A DNA stretch of 21,479 nucleotides from a virus: the IMG/VR virus record IMGVR_UViG_3300026519_000072, positions 1 to 21,479 of that record; one strand, 5' to 3'. A program made the position numbers and the translations under genes. This document shows, piece by piece, positions 10,633 through 20,163 of this stretch. The stretch's first letter is position 1, and each line of letters starts with the position of its first letter. The notes under the pieces were generated by a model. The model saw only the letters and a program-made list of their open reading frames with translations. It was not told the origin of the DNA and made no database searches.

Positions 10633-13200
10633 TCAATAGAAAATTGTATCCCTATTTTGTTGTGCCTGTCGCTGCATTCTTTCTTTAATCCGCATAGGCT
10701 CTCTAATCTTAAATGCAAATGTTAAAGCAAGTGCATCGCCTAAATCTGGCGACTTCATGCCACGCTTTTTAATATCGTCCTTGCTCTCAAGCTGCAACCG
10801 CTGATTATTATCAAACTTATAGCTAGGAGTGATTAAATCAGCTTGTAACGCATCGTCATCAGGAATCTGGTTTGGTTCATCACCTAGCCAATCCCTCATC
10901 TCACCCCACATTTCAGCACGCTTATTCTTATACTTTTCGTCATTACGAGCTTTTCCTCCAAAGTTTACATCTCTAATTATATCATCATAGCCAAATCGTT
11001 TCAGTCCATCATATACGCCAGCACCTAAGCCACCAACGTCAATATTAACCATCAACGGCTTATATCTATCTATTAGCTCAGCGACTATATCCCTCACGTC
11101 CATAGTGTCTTTATTCTTATAAGTGAGAATCTTGCTACAAACTCGCCCCTCTCTGAACATAATGGCAGTTCTATCATCTCCAAACCTTGCAGGGTCTACG
11201 CCTATAATCAGCGGTGCATCTTTATCAATAATTGGTGTTCCGTGCCTTGCCCTGTAAACTCTCTCAGAATCAATAAAGCAATCATCGCCCGAAGATTGAA
11301 ACGCCTCTATTGCCGTTGCGGGGTATTCCTGTTTAAATAGCCACGTACTGTCTAACTCTTGTATCTTAACCCTGCGCCAGTGTATCTGCTCATCGTCTAA
11401 ATCATAAGCCCTTTTATATTCCTGCTCCTCAGCAGATAGCACAAAATCTTTAGCAACAGCCTTCCTATATTCATCTTGCCAGAACCAAGGTGTGAATATT
11501 AATTGATACTTACTATCGCCCCGCAAAGCGTCCATGCACATATTGTAGTATAAACCACCAACACCGTTAGCAGTGCTTTCAAGTATAATCTCTGTATTAT
11601 CTGCATCAGGTACAGCTTGCAACGCTCCACTGGCTATATCTTGAGCATTATCCCAAAATGCAACCTCTGAATTAGACACAATACCTGTTGTTGTTTGGTA
11701 GTTGTGGTCTTCATGGTCTACTTCTATGTCCCATACAGACTCTATCTTTCGTGGCTCTATACTCTTAACCTTACAATAAACAACGCCGTCTTTAACGTAA
11801 CTCTTTTCTTTCCTCTTTCCTAGAGGCTCATTCTTATATCTGCGTAGCGTATTACCACTTATTCGCATTAAATAAATATCTTTAGTCGGCTTATCGTATC
11901 TAGTTCTCTTGCGCCTAGACACTGAGCAAGCGCCGTACAGAACGAAGCTTACTCGCTGTATTTGTCTTGCTATCTTCTCGTGTACACTGGGTGCTGATAC
12001 CTTACTAGGGTCTGTCTTACTTCCGTCACCATCAAGATAGCCCTTAAATACACCAGCGAGAAAATCCTTGTTTGTTTTAAAGAACCACTCAGGGATGTGC
12101 TTACCCTCTACTCTTCCGCATATAGAGTTTATGGCGCTTGTTAAGAATTTACCATATACGTGAGTTACGCCCCTTAGTGTGCGCTTCTCTTTGCAATGCT
12201 TAATAGATGTTTCAAGTCCGAACGTCCCTTTTAATGCTTCATTTATATAAGTTTCATCTTGGTGATAAGCAAAAGTAGTATATCCCATAGTATCTTTAGC
12301 ATGACCTTCTGCAAGATAATAACCAAGCAAATAACCAAAGTCATAGTTAAGCTTAAATGTATAATCCTCGATATGCTTAGAGCCACCACCCTGCGGACGC
12401 TCTTTATTCTTTAGTCGATAATCATAAACCCTAACACTTCCATCGGGGGTCATGTCGGGCATAGCAACATAATCATCTTTCGTCATGTCAGATAGCTGTT
12501 TATAGCCATCTTGAGTAAGCACTTGATGATTGCCTGTTAAATGTATAGCCTCGCCACTTACCCAACACTTAAGCGTATATGTCTGCTTATCGCCAGTATA
12601 TATCTTGTACTTTATAGGAGCAGCAGCGCCAGATGAAGTAATAACCACATCACCCTCTACAGCATCCCCCATCCTTTTGGCAGAACCATCAGCTAGAACT
12701 ATGAGGCTATCCTCACTCAAGCATCCATGAAATAGTTGTATTGTACTTGACCGCCCTACATTCTTATTCCCTGCCGTTCCTACCTTGTAACCACTATCTA
12801 ACTCACTGAATGAAAGTTCTTTGATATTACTTGTGCCAGTGGTAGTCCTTACAAACGCGGGCACATTCTCATGGTAGCGATTAGCAATATTAAACAGGTT
12901 AGCCGTTGCCTCTCCGTCATGTGTAAGAATAAACACCCTTACCCCGATTGAGTGAGTAGCTCTGTGATAATATCTTGCTGCTGTGTATGTAGAACAGCCC
13001 TGTTGCCTGCCCTTGAGGATTAAAGCCCTAACCTTGCCAGTATCAGCCTTTTGCTTCTCTAGTCGCTGGTGAATGTACTCTTGAGCCTTGTTCAGCTTGA
13101 ATAGCTCAATCTTTCCTGCCTTGGTTCTTATGTAGAGGCTGCTCTTTGCGTATCTTATAAACTCATCACGCAGAATATCCCGAAGCTGTATATCGTCCAT
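10633..13200 (-). CDS. terL: Terminase large subunit interrupted by an intein
   Basis: The 855-aa precursor contains a complete terminase large subunit of about 504 aa split by a 351-aa intein. The ATPase half has a Walker A-like ILKGRQQGCST (residues 61-71). The Walker B region IQLFHG|SEVAFWDNA is cut between Gly159 and Ser511, with the presumed catalytic acid as Glu512. The RNase H-like nuclease half has VDPARFGDDRTAI (Asp669), VNIDVGG (Asp721) and SPDLGDAL (Asp819/Asp822). It translocates DNA into the prohead through the portal and cuts the concatemer. Splicing should restore HGSEVAFW exactly, so the enzyme is likely functional only after protein splicing. An AGAGGG site precedes the ATG, and TerS lies 73 bp upstream. 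Confidence 0.95.
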   Translation of the reverse strand: MDDIQLRDILRDEFIRYAKSSLYIRTKAGKIELFKLNKAQEYIHQRLEKQKADTGKVRALILKGRQQGCSTYTAARYYHRATHSIGVRVFILTHDGEATANLFNIANRYHENVPAFVRTTTGTSNIKELSFSELDSGYKVGTAGNKNVGRSSTIQLFHGCLSEDSLIVLADGSAKRMGDAVEGDVVITSSGAAAPIKYKIYTGDKQTYTLKCWVSGEAIHLTGNHQVLTQDGYKQLSDMTKDDYVAMPDMTPDGSVRVYDYRLKNKERPQGGGSKHIEDYTFKLNYDFGYLLGYYLAEGHAKDTMGYTTFAYHQDETYINEALKGTFGLETSIKHCKEKRTLRGVTHVYGKFLTSAINSICGRVEGKHIPEWFFKTNKDFLAGVFKGYLDGDGSKTDPSKVSAPSVHEKIARQIQRVSFVLYGACSVSRRKRTRYDKPTKDIYLMRISGNTLRRYKNEPLGKRKEKSYVKDGVVYCKVKSIEPRKIESVWDIEVDHEDHNYQTTTGIVSNSEVAFWDNAQDIASGALQAVPDADNTEIILESTANGVGGLYYNMCMDALRGDSKYQLIFTPWFWQDEYRKAVAKDFVLSAEEQEYKRAYDLDDEQIHWRRVKIQELDSTWLFKQEYPATAIEAFQSSGDDCFIDSERVYRARHGTPIIDKDAPLIIGVDPARFGDDRTAIMFREGRVCSKILTYKNKDTMDVRDIVAELIDRYKPLMVNIDVGGLGAGVYDGLKRFGYDDIIRDVNFGGKARNDEKYKNKRAEMWGEMRDWLGDEPNQIPDDDALQADLITPSYKFDNNQRLQLESKDDIKKRGMKSPDLGDALALTFAFKIREPMRIKERMQRQAQQNRDTIFY
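11671..12723 (-). mobile_element. LAGLIDADG intein within TerL
   Basis: The intein covers residues 160-510 of the TerL precursor. It begins with Cys160 (CLSEDSLIVLADGSAKRM, splicing block A) and has a block B-like LTGNHQVL. Two LAGLIDADG motifs follow: LLGYYLAEGH (acid Glu298) and LAGVFKGYLDGDG (acid Asp392). It ends with block F SVWDIEVDHEDHNYQT and block G GIVSN, with Ser511 as the +1 nucleophile. Both endonuclease acids are present, so homing activity is plausible. The usual penultimate His is Ser509 here. The insertion point is directly before the catalytic Ser-Glu of the ATPase, a conserved site typical of inteins. The frame is open throughout. Confidence 0.92.
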
Positions 13201-15320: not shown

Positions 15321-15800
15321 ATGACTAAAGAACTATTTGAAATCAAACACCCCTATTCGGGTGAAGTCCTATTTAAAACAAAGGCTATCTCTCTAAAAGT
15401 AGCCCTTGAAATAGGAATAAAAAAGGATGCTGACCTGTGGGGTGCTGACCTGAGGGATGCTAACCTGAGGGAGGCTAACCTGTGGGATGCTGACCTGTGG
15501 GATGCTAACCTGAGGGAGGCTGACCTGTGGGGGCAAAAAATATATATCTCCCCTAATTTTATGGAGCTTGAGCCATACCGCATAATGGCATTTAACTCAG
15601 TTATAAAGATAGGCTGCGAGCTGCACACAATTGAAGAGTGGGAAGGATTCTCTGATAAAAGAATCTTAGAGATGGAGGGCAAGAAAGCCCTTGAGTGGTG
15701 GAAATCTTACAAAGAGCCAATACTTACTATAGCTAAAATCCACGCTGAAAAAGCAGAAAAAGCAAAACTTGAATTTAAAAAGGAAAAAAATAATGACTAA
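15321..15800 (+). CDS. Pentapeptide-repeat protein
   Basis: A 159-aa protein. Residues 36-70 are seven consecutive pentapeptides of the form (D/E/G)A(D/N)L(W/R), making not quite two coils of a right-handed quadrilateral beta helix. Then comes a domain with 'VIKIGCELHTIEEWEGFSDK' and 'ALEWWKSYKEPIL', and a Lys/Glu/Ala-rich tail. The C-terminal 'IGC--HtieeW--fsd--i--m---AleWW--wk--l' pattern is one I know from many phage pentapeptide proteins of unknown role. With so few coils a DNA-mimic gyrase inhibitor role is unlikely. It is preceded by AAAGGA and overlaps the regulator gene by 8 bases. Confidence 0.75.
   Translation: MTKELFEIKHPYSGEVLFKTKAISLKVALEIGIKKDADLWGADLRDANLREANLWDADLWDANLREADLWGQKIYISPNFMELEPYRIMAFNSVIKIGCELHTIEEWEGFSDKRILEMEGKKALEWWKSYKEPILTIAKIHAEKAEKAKLEFKKEKNND
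15426..15530 (+). repeat. Seven tandem 15-bp repeats in the pentapeptide gene
   Basis: Seven head-to-tail units related to GATGCTGACCTGTGG, each differing from the others at one to four positions (GAT/GGT/GAG at the start, GAC/AAC, TGTGG/TGAGG). They encode the pentapeptides. Their near identity suggests recent expansion and easy gain or loss of units. Confidence 0.9.
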
Positions 15801-16122
15801 AGAAAATGATAAAATAATAGGGGCTAGAATACGTGAGTTGCGTACTGTCCTAGGGATTAAACAACGCGAGCTTGGTAAACATCTTGATGTATCCTTTCAG
15901 CAGATACAGAAATATGAGAGGGGTGTTAATCGTATTGGTGCGGGGAATATAACCAAAATATGCGATATACTTAAAATATGCCCTAACGACCTCTTTTTAG
16001 TGTCTAGCACTACCCCTTTAGAAGCTCCTAAGGCAACGCTTAACCTAATGAGAGATTATAACAAATGCACGGCAAATATACAATGTCATATTAATGCCCT
16101 TGTGTCAGAATTGGCAAATTAA
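15793..16122 (+). CDS. XRE-family helix-turn-helix regulator
   Basis: The ATG at 15793 (MTKENDK) with AAGGA upstream is preferred over a TTG at 15769. The 109-aa protein has a typical XRE/Cro-type domain at about residues 9-68: 'IGARIRELRTVLGIKQRELG', 'LDVSFQQIQKYERGVNRIGA' and 'ITKICDILKICPNDLF'. The 'vs-qQiqKYE-G-nRi-a--l--ia--L-v---dlF' pattern is close to alphaproteobacterial and phage regulators of this family. The last 40 residues are probably helical and may dimerise. It could regulate the divergent promoters at 14485-14574 or the rightward operon itself. Its ATG overlaps the stop of the pentapeptide gene. Confidence 0.85.
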   Translation: MTKENDKIIGARIRELRTVLGIKQRELGKHLDVSFQQIQKYERGVNRIGAGNITKICDILKICPNDLFLVSSTTPLEAPKATLNLMRDYNKCTANIQCHINALVSELAN

Positions 16123-18214: not shown

Positions 18215-19549
18215 TTACCTCCAAACTGTTTCTGATTCATCTATTTCTTCCATGTGCGTGCCAGTCTTTGCGATTCTAAAGGCTGGATTCTCCTCACTAC
18301 CTATGTTCATCGGCTCTGTTTCCCTCGTTGCTATATGCTCAAGCCATATTTCAGATGGGTCTGTTTCATATTTCTTTTCTATCTGGTGAAGTTCATAAAT
18401 CCAATCAACAGCCATAATAATACCATCGCCGTTTCTTACCTCTCCACTACGATTTATCTGCGCCGAATATAATGACCAAATATTATGTTTCTTGGAAAGC
18501 TCGGCTATGGTTTGTGCTACGTTTTCTTGGTGCTGGGCTATCATTACGCCCTTCTCAGAGCCAGTAACAAGCTGCAAATAATCAAGTATAAAGCCTTTTA
18601 TCCCATATTGATAAACAGCTTTGTTTACAATAAGCTCAAGGTTTTTTAAAGATACTCGTGGCGCATCAACATAATACATCGACTGCTTATCATCTGTAAT
18701 TGTAGAAACTAATTTGCTAGCAAATTGAGGGTTGTTCTTCTCGCTTTTAAAAGCCTTTGGTGACCTACCAATCTCAGCACCTATAATTCTTTTATTAATA
18801 GACTTAGAACCCATCTCGCAAGCAATAAATAAAAACTTATCATCTCTCTTGCGCAGGTTTCCAGCAATTGTAGACTTAATCATTGTCTTTCCAGCCTTGG
18901 GCTTAGCGGCTATGCAGTAAGAACAGCCAGCCTTTAATCCGCCGTCCATAGTTTTATCAATCTTATCTAGTCCAGTGGGATAAATTTCATCTACTTTATC
19001 AAGGTCTTCAATCATTTCTTGAGTAACATCAACAAATTTCTTTATTTTAAAACTTGAATGACTATGGGATAGCGCAAGTGATTGCTGATTAATGTCCTCG
19101 AGAACATCAGGAACACTTATATCGTCTCTGCCAGATTGTATTTCTTGTATTTTCTCCTTAAGAATATCATTTAATTTGCGTTTATCGGATAAGTCCTTAA
19201 CAAGCCTAGCGCATGGGGTCATTATTTCCCCACTAGAAGATATTAACAATCCCATCCACTTTGCTTTTCCACCAACATCTTTAAGGTCGTAATCCTCGTT
19301 AAATAAGCTTGCTATATTAGCAATGCCAACTTCCTTAATTGGAATGGTATCTTGCAAGAATCTAAAAACGATTTGATGCTCATTAAATGCAAAATCTTCA
19401 ACAGATAGGTATTGTATTTTATAAAGATAGTCATTTTTGGCAATGAGGTTTGCAAGTACAACTGTTTCGGCGTGTACACTTATAAGCCCAACAACTCTTG
19501 AATCTATCCTTTTATTAGCCTTCTCTAAAAATGGTTCTATATTACTCAT
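18215..19549 (-). CDS. DnaB-type replicative helicase
   Basis: A 444-aa protein with DnaB-type layout. Residues about 24-85 resemble the helical DnaB N-terminal domain ('HAETVVLANLI'). The RecA-like core starts near 190 with 'PTGLDKIDKTMDGGLKAGC'. Walker A is AAKPKAGKT (Lys221, Thr222), then FIACEMG (Glu245, catalytic), ILDYLQLVTG (Walker B, 321-330) and 'YSAQINRSGEVR' (motif H4). It would unwind DNA at the fork as a hexamer, loaded by the protein encoded just upstream. Its ATG overlaps that gene's stop (ATGA). The Walker A loop has A-K-P-K-A in place of the usual G-R-P-S-M, a modest deviation. Confidence 0.9.
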   Translation of the reverse strand: MSNIEPFLEKANKRIDSRVVGLISVHAETVVLANLIAKNDYLYKIQYLSVEDFAFNEHQIVFRFLQDTIPIKEVGIANIASLFNEDYDLKDVGGKAKWMGLLISSSGEIMTPCARLVKDLSDKRKLNDILKEKIQEIQSGRDDISVPDVLEDINQQSLALSHSHSSFKIKKFVDVTQEMIEDLDKVDEIYPTGLDKIDKTMDGGLKAGCSYCIAAKPKAGKTMIKSTIAGNLRKRDDKFLFIACEMGSKSINKRIIGAEIGRSPKAFKSEKNNPQFASKLVSTITDDKQSMYYVDAPRVSLKNLELIVNKAVYQYGIKGFILDYLQLVTGSEKGVMIAQHQENVAQTIAELSKKHNIWSLYSAQINRSGEVRNGDGIIMAVDWIYELHQIEKKYETDPSEIWLEHIATRETEPMNIGSEENPAFRIAKTGTHMEEIDESETVWR

Positions 19550-20163
19550 ATCGTCTTCTTCGCACCTCCTCTTGAATTTATAGAAACAGTTGACTTATAC
19601 TCATCTTCCCATCTTTCAGAGTTAAGCCAAGTTGTAGCATGAGCAAAGTCTTGATAGTCTGGTTTGTGCTTAATATACAATAAAAGGGCTTTTATTATTT
19701 CCTCAGGAGATGTTTTATTGATAGCTTTTTTCCAAGAGATAAACGCAGGTGCTTTTTTCTCTCCTCTTGGATATTGTTTCCAAAAGTCTTCAAATTCCTC
19801 AGAGTATTTATTTTTAGCCTTTATATTATCAGTATCAGTATCAGTATCAGTATCGGCTTTAACTGGGGGCGACTGGGGGCGACTGGGTTTATTTTTCTTT
19901 CTACCCCCCCTCATTCCATTGGATTTATTACGCTCGCAAATAGATAGCCAACTGCCATAATCCCTTATCAGGTGCGACAAAAACGGCTTATATATTGCTG
20001 ATAACAAACCCGATAACCCACTGGGCTCAACTGGGTGCGACTGGGCTAATTGTTTAGAAGATTTAATGATTGCTTTAATTAGTTGACCTGCGTCGTCATC
20101 TGATAGTTCAGAGAATATTTCGCACTGGTCATGATATAATAGAAATGTTTTTTTTTCGGTCAT
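19546..20163 (-). CDS. Replication initiator / replisome organiser (lambda O-like role, DUF6291-type N-terminus)
   Basis: A 205-aa protein. The N-terminal 80 residues ('FLLYHDQCEIFSELSDDDAG', 'LIKAIIK') are of the type often labelled DUF6291 in phage replication proteins. Residues 81-119 are a basic, Pro/Ser/Asp-Thr linker. The C-terminal domain ('YSEEFEDFWKQYPRGEKKAP', 'ATTWLNSERWED') is the common end of phage and plasmid replication initiators that recruit the helicase. It is directly followed by the DnaB-type helicase gene with an ATGA overlap. The gene contains clustered 10-bp repeats, as the lambda O gene contains the origin. No ATPase motif is present, so it is not a DnaC-type loader. 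Confidence 0.75.
   Translation of the reverse strand: MTEKKTFLLYHDQCEIFSELSDDDAGQLIKAIIKSSKQLAQSHPVEPSGLSGLLSAIYKPFLSHLIRDYGSWLSICERNKSNGMRGGRKKNKPSRPQSPPVKADTDTDTDTDNIKAKNKYSEEFEDFWKQYPRGEKKAPAFISWKKAINKTSPEEIIKALLLYIKHKPDYQDFAHATTWLNSERWEDEYKSTVSINSRGGAKKTI
19827..19856 (+). repeat. Five tandem TATCAG hexamers
   Basis: Four TATCAG units and one TATCGG unit in the linker of the replication gene encode alternating Asp-Thr. They are next to the ACTGGG array at 19862 and to an A/T-rich stretch on the other side (19805-19826). They may simply be a low-complexity linker or belong to the candidate origin. Confidence 0.85.
19862..19891 (+). repeat. Iteron-like array B: three 10-bp ACTGGG repeats
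   Basis: ACTGGG recurs at exact 10-bp steps (19862, 19872, 19882), twice as ACTGGGGGCG and then ACTGGGTTTA. Ten-base phasing puts all copies on one face of the helix. It lies in the linker-coding part of the replication gene, next to an A/T-rich stretch, as the lambda origin lies within O. Confidence 0.7.
20020..20049 (+). repeat. Iteron-like array A: three 10-bp ACTGGG repeats
   Basis: ACTGGG at 20020, 20030 and 20040 (units ACTGGGCTCA, ACTGGGTGCG, ACTGGGCTAA). The hexamer, the phase and the copy number match array B about 130 bp away. Both arrays encode a QS-(H/P)-PV peptide. Possible second binding cluster for the initiator protein. Confidence 0.7.

Follow-up and report, generated by a model that had tools for sequence, protein, structure and literature searches.

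The gene at 19546-20163 of the window (the whole stretch of DNA that was analysed, 21,479 bases, which is an entire viral record with terminase, portal and capsid genes) very likely holds the phage replication origin, and two phased clusters of a short repeat inside it would serve as iterons for the protein that this gene encodes. What was observed directly is that the repeats are conserved as DNA, where they lie, that they are phased at 10 bp, and that repeat type goes with the type of tail closing the protein's N-domain. The features concerned are as follows.

19546..20163, minus strand: putative initiator gene, 205 aa, with a DUF6291 N-domain (residues 6-90), a disordered linker and a helical C-terminal domain
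18215..19549, minus strand: DnaB-like replicative helicase gene, directly downstream of the initiator gene
20017..20045, minus strand: putative iteron cluster 2, three CCCAGT at 10-bp steps in the N-domain loop (about codons 40-48; predicted loop)
19909..19944 (approximate), minus strand: codons of the N-domain tail (ERNKSNGMRGGRKK), proposed recognition element
19862..19887, minus strand: putative iteron cluster 1, three CCCAGT (coding strand) at 10-bp steps in the linker (about codons 93-101)
19827..19856, minus strand: hexamer array, candidate unwinding element or flexible linker, (GATACT)n on the coding strand, read as DTDTDT
19803..19854, minus strand: A/T-rich stretch of 52 bp adjoining the hexamer array

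The window protein matches Pfam PF19808 (DUF6291) over residues 6-90 (E 2e-12, 47.5 bits against a curated cut-off of 27.2), while roughly its last 120 residues (82-197) match PHROG 270, 'replication initiation protein' (E 7e-23); judging from these matches, the product is probably a DNA replication starter. The next gene matches Pfam DnaB_C (E 2e-19), the DnaB N-terminal domain (E 5e-6) and PHROG 19 (E 1e-42), and the same initiator-then-helicase gene order is found in Vibrio phage 1.265.O. The first-pass annotation had called the initiator gene O-like, which holds for function and gene order only, the family being DUF6291; no lambda O family appeared among the Pfam and PHROGs matches at E 0.1, which leaves room for remote kinship. 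In the AlphaFold2 model of the initiator, one helix covers residues 22-38 and another residues 52-84, and confidence is low for the linker that comes after residue 84; both clusters are codons for unstructured parts, namely the loop between these helices and the linker. A PDB fold search with this model gave nothing at E 0.001 or better. VIA-align placed residues 5-88 best on a spliceosomal chain (Z 6.5, rmsd 4.0, 84 aligned) and, lower, on the origin-bound DNA-binding domain of ColE2-P9 Rep (Z 4.6, rmsd 8.9, 92 aligned), but these matches are at chance level for helical models according to the tool's own note, and two matches from a sequence search of solved structures were low-complexity and discarded. 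Elsewhere in the window, the terminase large subunit gene (10633-13200, minus strand) is interrupted in frame by an intein that includes an endonuclease domain of the LAGLIDADG type (Pfam matches to Intein_splicing at E 7.5e-9 and to LAGLIDADG_3 at E 2.5e-7), and a pentapeptide-repeat protein (Pfam, E 6e-11) is encoded at 15321-15800 on the plus strand, opposite to most genes.

On the plus strand the repeat reads ACTGGG and starts at 19862, 19872 and 19882 and again at 20020, 20030 and 20040, so the two triples at exact 10-bp steps described in the first-pass annotation are real. The count of ACTGGG alone is unremarkable (10 in the window against 6.64 expected, with at least 10 in 11 of 100 shuffles), whereas the phased triple ACTGGGN4ACTGGGN4ACTGGG occurs twice in the window and in none of 100 dinucleotide shuffles. 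Cluster 2 begins with an inverted pair, CCCACTGGG (20017-20025). Because 10 is not a multiple of 3, each cluster traverses all three codon frames, its three CCCAGT being read as QS, PV and PS in the loop and as PS, QS and PV in the linker, and amino-acid repeats therefore offer no explanation. This was also the outcome of a synonymous-codon test, in which the protein was held fixed, codons were redrawn 20,000 times and out-of-frame repeated 6-mers were counted: the linker has 12 against 0.12 expected (p 1e-4) and the loop 5 against 0.11 (p 7e-4). The earlier judgement that a QS(H/P)PV peptide repeat would not account for the phased third copies is upheld.

For comparison, phage tblastn with the window protein returned 33 distant records and, with its Vibrio relative, 24; the loci of 16 of these were examined, and an N-domain alignment search added at least 80 viral loci and 80 genome loci. 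Among the matches listed, 174 genes were collected, 172 of them with a recognisable tail start (L122 and L135 were left out), and dereplication at 85% gave 132. Tails were sorted into class A (NG-x-KGGRPK-like), class B (KNRLIAEKR type) and class C (RRA-x-AG-x-KGG type). Single-protein queries of viral_contigs with the window protein and with its helicase, aimed at near kin, gave pattern matches and, by tblastn, no relative; with no close relative of the window protein found there or by phage tblastn, its repeats are not traceable in near kin. The exact window triple occurs in 16 stretches of viral_contigs, just one of which has a frame with GGRPR less than 1.5 kb away; no DUF6291 gene was demonstrated in any of them, and they were dropped as relatives, their appearance being that of other elements or of chance. 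Unrelated viral contigs (L005 and L012, also L003, L014 and L016) have up to five ACTGGG at 10-bp steps in places not covered by long ORFs, and these are possibly other iteron arrays.

The same kind of DNA motif is found in the linkers of homologues. In the linkers of 42 dereplicated class A genes, AACCCA occurs 115 times against 15.1 expected from synonymous codons (frames 27/49/39; present in 33 of the 42), and in class C linkers AGCAAA occurs 100 times against 27.4 expected (frames 49/21/30), both counts resting on a first class assignment in which class C was defined by linker peptides and from which 6 + 3 genes were later shifted by eye. The 6-mer scan tested many words on genes that are still kin after 85% dereplication, so that its z values are not probabilities and more weight belongs to the occurrence in all three frames. 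In class A, one copy usually follows the last after one or two helical turns (10 bp in 42 cases, 9 bp in 14, 20 bp in 23 and 30 bp in 6), and AGCAA cores of class C make 66 steps of exactly 10 bp. The density of ACCCA is 22.7 per kb in class A linkers against 1.11 per kb in flanks, and repeat density is back to background by about 200 bp from the linker start. The choice of proline codon goes with the motif: after N it is CCA in 57 of 57 cases, and where K or E precedes it is CCC in 49 of 70, against a mixed usage outside linkers (CCA 85, CCC 31, CCG 48, CCT 67). Tested gene by gene, synonymous codons gave significance in 22 of 47 class A, 12 of 24 class C and 0 of 7 class B genes. In class A linkers AACCCAGTGGGTT or near variants are translated as NPVG, KPSG or TQSV, and the layout recurs in many related phages even with differing encoded amino acids. 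It had been proposed that related phages keeping the protein while losing the repeats by synonymous changes would speak against iterons; the opposite is seen, the repeats being kept while the encoded peptide has changed. The earlier suggestion of DNA-level iterons for the initiator thus gains support from a motif kept in three frames and from repeats that vary with the N-domain tail.

The count to trust for the relation between tail and repeat is a second class assignment, made on tails alone (43 A, 7 B, 31 C). In this count repeat type goes with tail type with very few exceptions. At least two copies of ACCCA are present in 32 of the 43 class A genes and in none of the class B or class C genes; AGCAAA is typical of class C (27 of 31 genes, against 3 of the 43 in class A and none of the 7 in class B), and TACCA of class B (all 7 genes, against 1 of the 43 in class A and none of the 31 in class C). 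The core is no predictor of the repeat: L025 (class A) and L041 (class B) have cores that are 86% identical and tails that are only 29% identical, and their repeats differ. The repeat's partner within the protein thus seems, from this covariation, to be the tail closing the N-domain rather than the core, which narrows the earlier claim that the N-terminal domain as such is the reader. The window itself has GGRKK where the class consensus is GGRPK and CCCAGT where the class repeat is AACCCA, and it falls below the count of ACCCA twice or more, like 10 others of the 43 class A genes; both deviations fit a joint change, a single case being no test. Vibrio phage 1.178.O is an instance of natural exchange: its protein shares 92% identity with that of 1.265.O over the C-terminal part, and its N-domain is DUF1376. 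Its linker has neither ACCCA nor GATAGT; it carries GCACGA, spaced at 10 bp and accompanied by an inverted partner. Since chance alone can give three GCACGA in 3.3 kb (31 of 200 shuffles do so), it is the arrangement and not the count that fits.

The tail is also found on DUF1376 proteins. In a comparison of the DUF6291 and DUF1376 profiles, only the 27-residue tail aligns (probability 95.9). A search of viral contigs with AAACCCAGTGGGTT placed the word in a tail-bearing ORF at 63 of 120 loci among the matches listed; the other 57 listed loci are without such an ORF, and the word therefore occurs outside initiators too. At least 35 dereplicated tail-bearing ORFs with AAACCCAGTGGGTT, many of them DUF1376, were collected through the repeat itself, with codon phases of 12/11/15, and their sites lie in linkers in 34 cases and inside the N-domain in 4, like cluster 2 of the window. 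When the AAACCCAGTGGGTT 14-mer is masked, these linkers still contain 71 AACCCA against 16.6 expected, with every frame represented (among the matches listed). A set of 13 picked as DUF1376-like matched DUF1376 in all 13 cases. For the DUF1376 model, the structures matched were winged-helix proteins and the N-domains of DnaD, with E above 0.1, which is suggestive only. Two DUF1376 genes, in L218 (11155, 11360) and L271 (3179, 3381), have the AACCCAGTGGGTT site twice each, in N-domain codons and in the linker about 200 bp apart, an arrangement that resembles the two clusters of the window.

Sequence comparison slightly favours the idea of a portable module, in which the tail of about 27 residues (ERN-x-x-NG-x-KGGRPK and variants) would read the repeat written immediately downstream, and reader and target would travel together between phages. 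The tail would then have been joined to two or more N-domains that share no other recognisable similarity (the helical DUF6291 and the winged-helix-like DUF1376) and would predict the origin sequence, GGRPK going with AACCCA, RRA-x-AG-x-KGG with AGCAAA and KNRLIAEKR with TACCA. If true, this would be a simple protein-to-DNA rule from tail type to repeat type, it would give a natural reason for the swapping of phage replication modules as a whole, and the origins of many DUF6291 and DUF1376 phages and prophages could be located from sequence to about 100 bp. Both families are listed in Pfam as of 'unknown function'. In the literature searched, DUF6291 is named in no paper, and no description of the tail-and-repeat pairing came up.

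Cluster 1 lies in the linker-coding part beside the TATCAG array, as had been noted, while the A/T-rich stretch noted with it is real but modest. Four copies of TATCAG fill 19827-19850, a TATCGG after them extends the array to 19856, and the array adjoins cluster 1. The 52-bp stretch is 73% A+T against 62% gene-wide, and richer 60-mers (82%) lie about 800 bp upstream. The analogous (GATAGT)n of homologues occurs 92 times against 10.3 expected and is kept irrespective of tail type. The hexamer array could be an opening element; it stays in codon frame 0 throughout, though, and may be a feature of the protein, and the unwinding element is the weakest part of the origin reading. DUF1376 linkers (e.g., L218, L214 and L216) have A/T-rich TAACCA/AACCAA arrays instead of GATAGT arrays, TAACCA occurring 40 times against 9.3 expected in two frames and coding for NHKP/NQEP repeats. 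In Aeromonas phage 4_L372X (L032, 1878), the homologous gene is annotated as split, and an N where the hexamer array starts is probably a sequencing gap.

In the proposed mechanism, the closing helix of the N-domain and its basic tail would bind CCCAGT half-sites, and several copies would lie on one face of the DNA because the half-sites are one helical turn apart. The adjoining hexamer array and A/T-rich stretch would then be opened, and the C-terminal domain would bring in the DnaB-like helicase encoded by the next gene. Initiator binding, DNA opening, helicase loading and origin activity are here proposed by analogy with known systems. GC skew, suggested earlier as a check, shows no switch at the initiator gene across the window and tracks gene direction, which counts against an origin there.

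Other roles for the repeats have to be weighed. They might be initiator binding sites for autoregulation or copy control of the replication genes rather than for origin firing, and for such binding the sequence data would look alike whether it is of the repression or the initiation type; the sites do lie within the gene, also in its upstream half in the window and in 4 of 35 listed tail-bearing ORFs. However, the array is deep in the coding region, adjoins the conserved hexamer array and stands ahead of the helicase gene, a layout like that described for lambda ori (PMC7466680) and SPP1 oriL (PMC6316719), so that autoregulation without origin firing is considered unlikely. Sites for another phage or host protein, such as a repressor or a packaging or partition protein, are improbable: an HTH_3 protein is indeed encoded in the window at 15769-16122, but repeat type tracks the tail of the repeat's own gene over 81 DUF6291 genes and three tail types, and repeat density falls straight away outside the linker.

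It is very improbable that the DNA repeats merely mimic sites as a by-product of a low-complexity linker whose proline-rich and D-T repeats grew by slippage. The hexamer array, always in codon frame 0, may have arisen by slippage or by selection for an acidic flexible linker, but CCCAGT and AACCCA spread over three frames at 10-bp steps with motif-led codon choice, and the same motif accompanies unrelated N-domains. Iterons in an origin within the initiator gene are the reading retained.

Origins inside initiator genes are already known. The lambda origin sits between the parts of gene O that encode its N- and C-terminal domains, each with its own role, and lambda P is a helicase loader; the window has a DnaB-like helicase gene downstream, unlike lambda P. 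Lambda ori has been described as lying within the initiator gene O, with iterons adjoining an A/T-rich region and a helicase-recruiting gene downstream (PMC7466680), and the window likewise has repeats in a putative initiator gene beside a modestly A/T-rich stretch, with a helicase gene downstream. The lambda iterons are imperfect inverted repeats of about 19 bp (PMC7466680), whereas the window has direct 6-bp cores at 10-bp steps and at most one inverted pair; of long imperfect inverted-repeat iterons there are none, only the short pair at 20017-20025. SPP1 oriL in gene 38 and the proposed origin in ORF20 of 80alpha are described as direct repeats plus an A/T-rich element inside an initiator gene, in modules with a phage-encoded DnaB-type helicase (PMC6316719, PMC5499656). 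The window resembles SPP1 oriL in its direct repeats, its own DnaB-like helicase gene and, modestly, its A/T-rich stretch, and differs in that its protein is DUF6291, another family by the matches found; SPP1 is also reported to have a second origin, oriR, 13 kb away (PMC6316719). Initiators at lambda ori (PMC7466680) and SPP1 oriL (PMC6316719) are described as binding repeats in their own gene, opening the A/T-rich neighbour and loading the helicase, and the best reading, by analogy, is that the window origin would work like one of these, a likeness of function and not a claim of kinship with either family.

A further comparison is offered by ydaU of the Rac prophage of E. coli K-12 (L313, 5512-5577), which has a DUF1376 N-domain and three exact TGTTCAAACA copies in 66 bp of linker, two direct and one inverted, with no further exact copy in 16 kb; its tail and its repeat are both different from those of the window. 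The Rac prophage is reported to have an active origin, oriJ (PMC3945230). By analogy, oriJ is predicted to lie in ydaU with the TGTTCAAACA copies as its candidate site and, if true, this would be a pointer to the position of oriJ in E. coli K-12.
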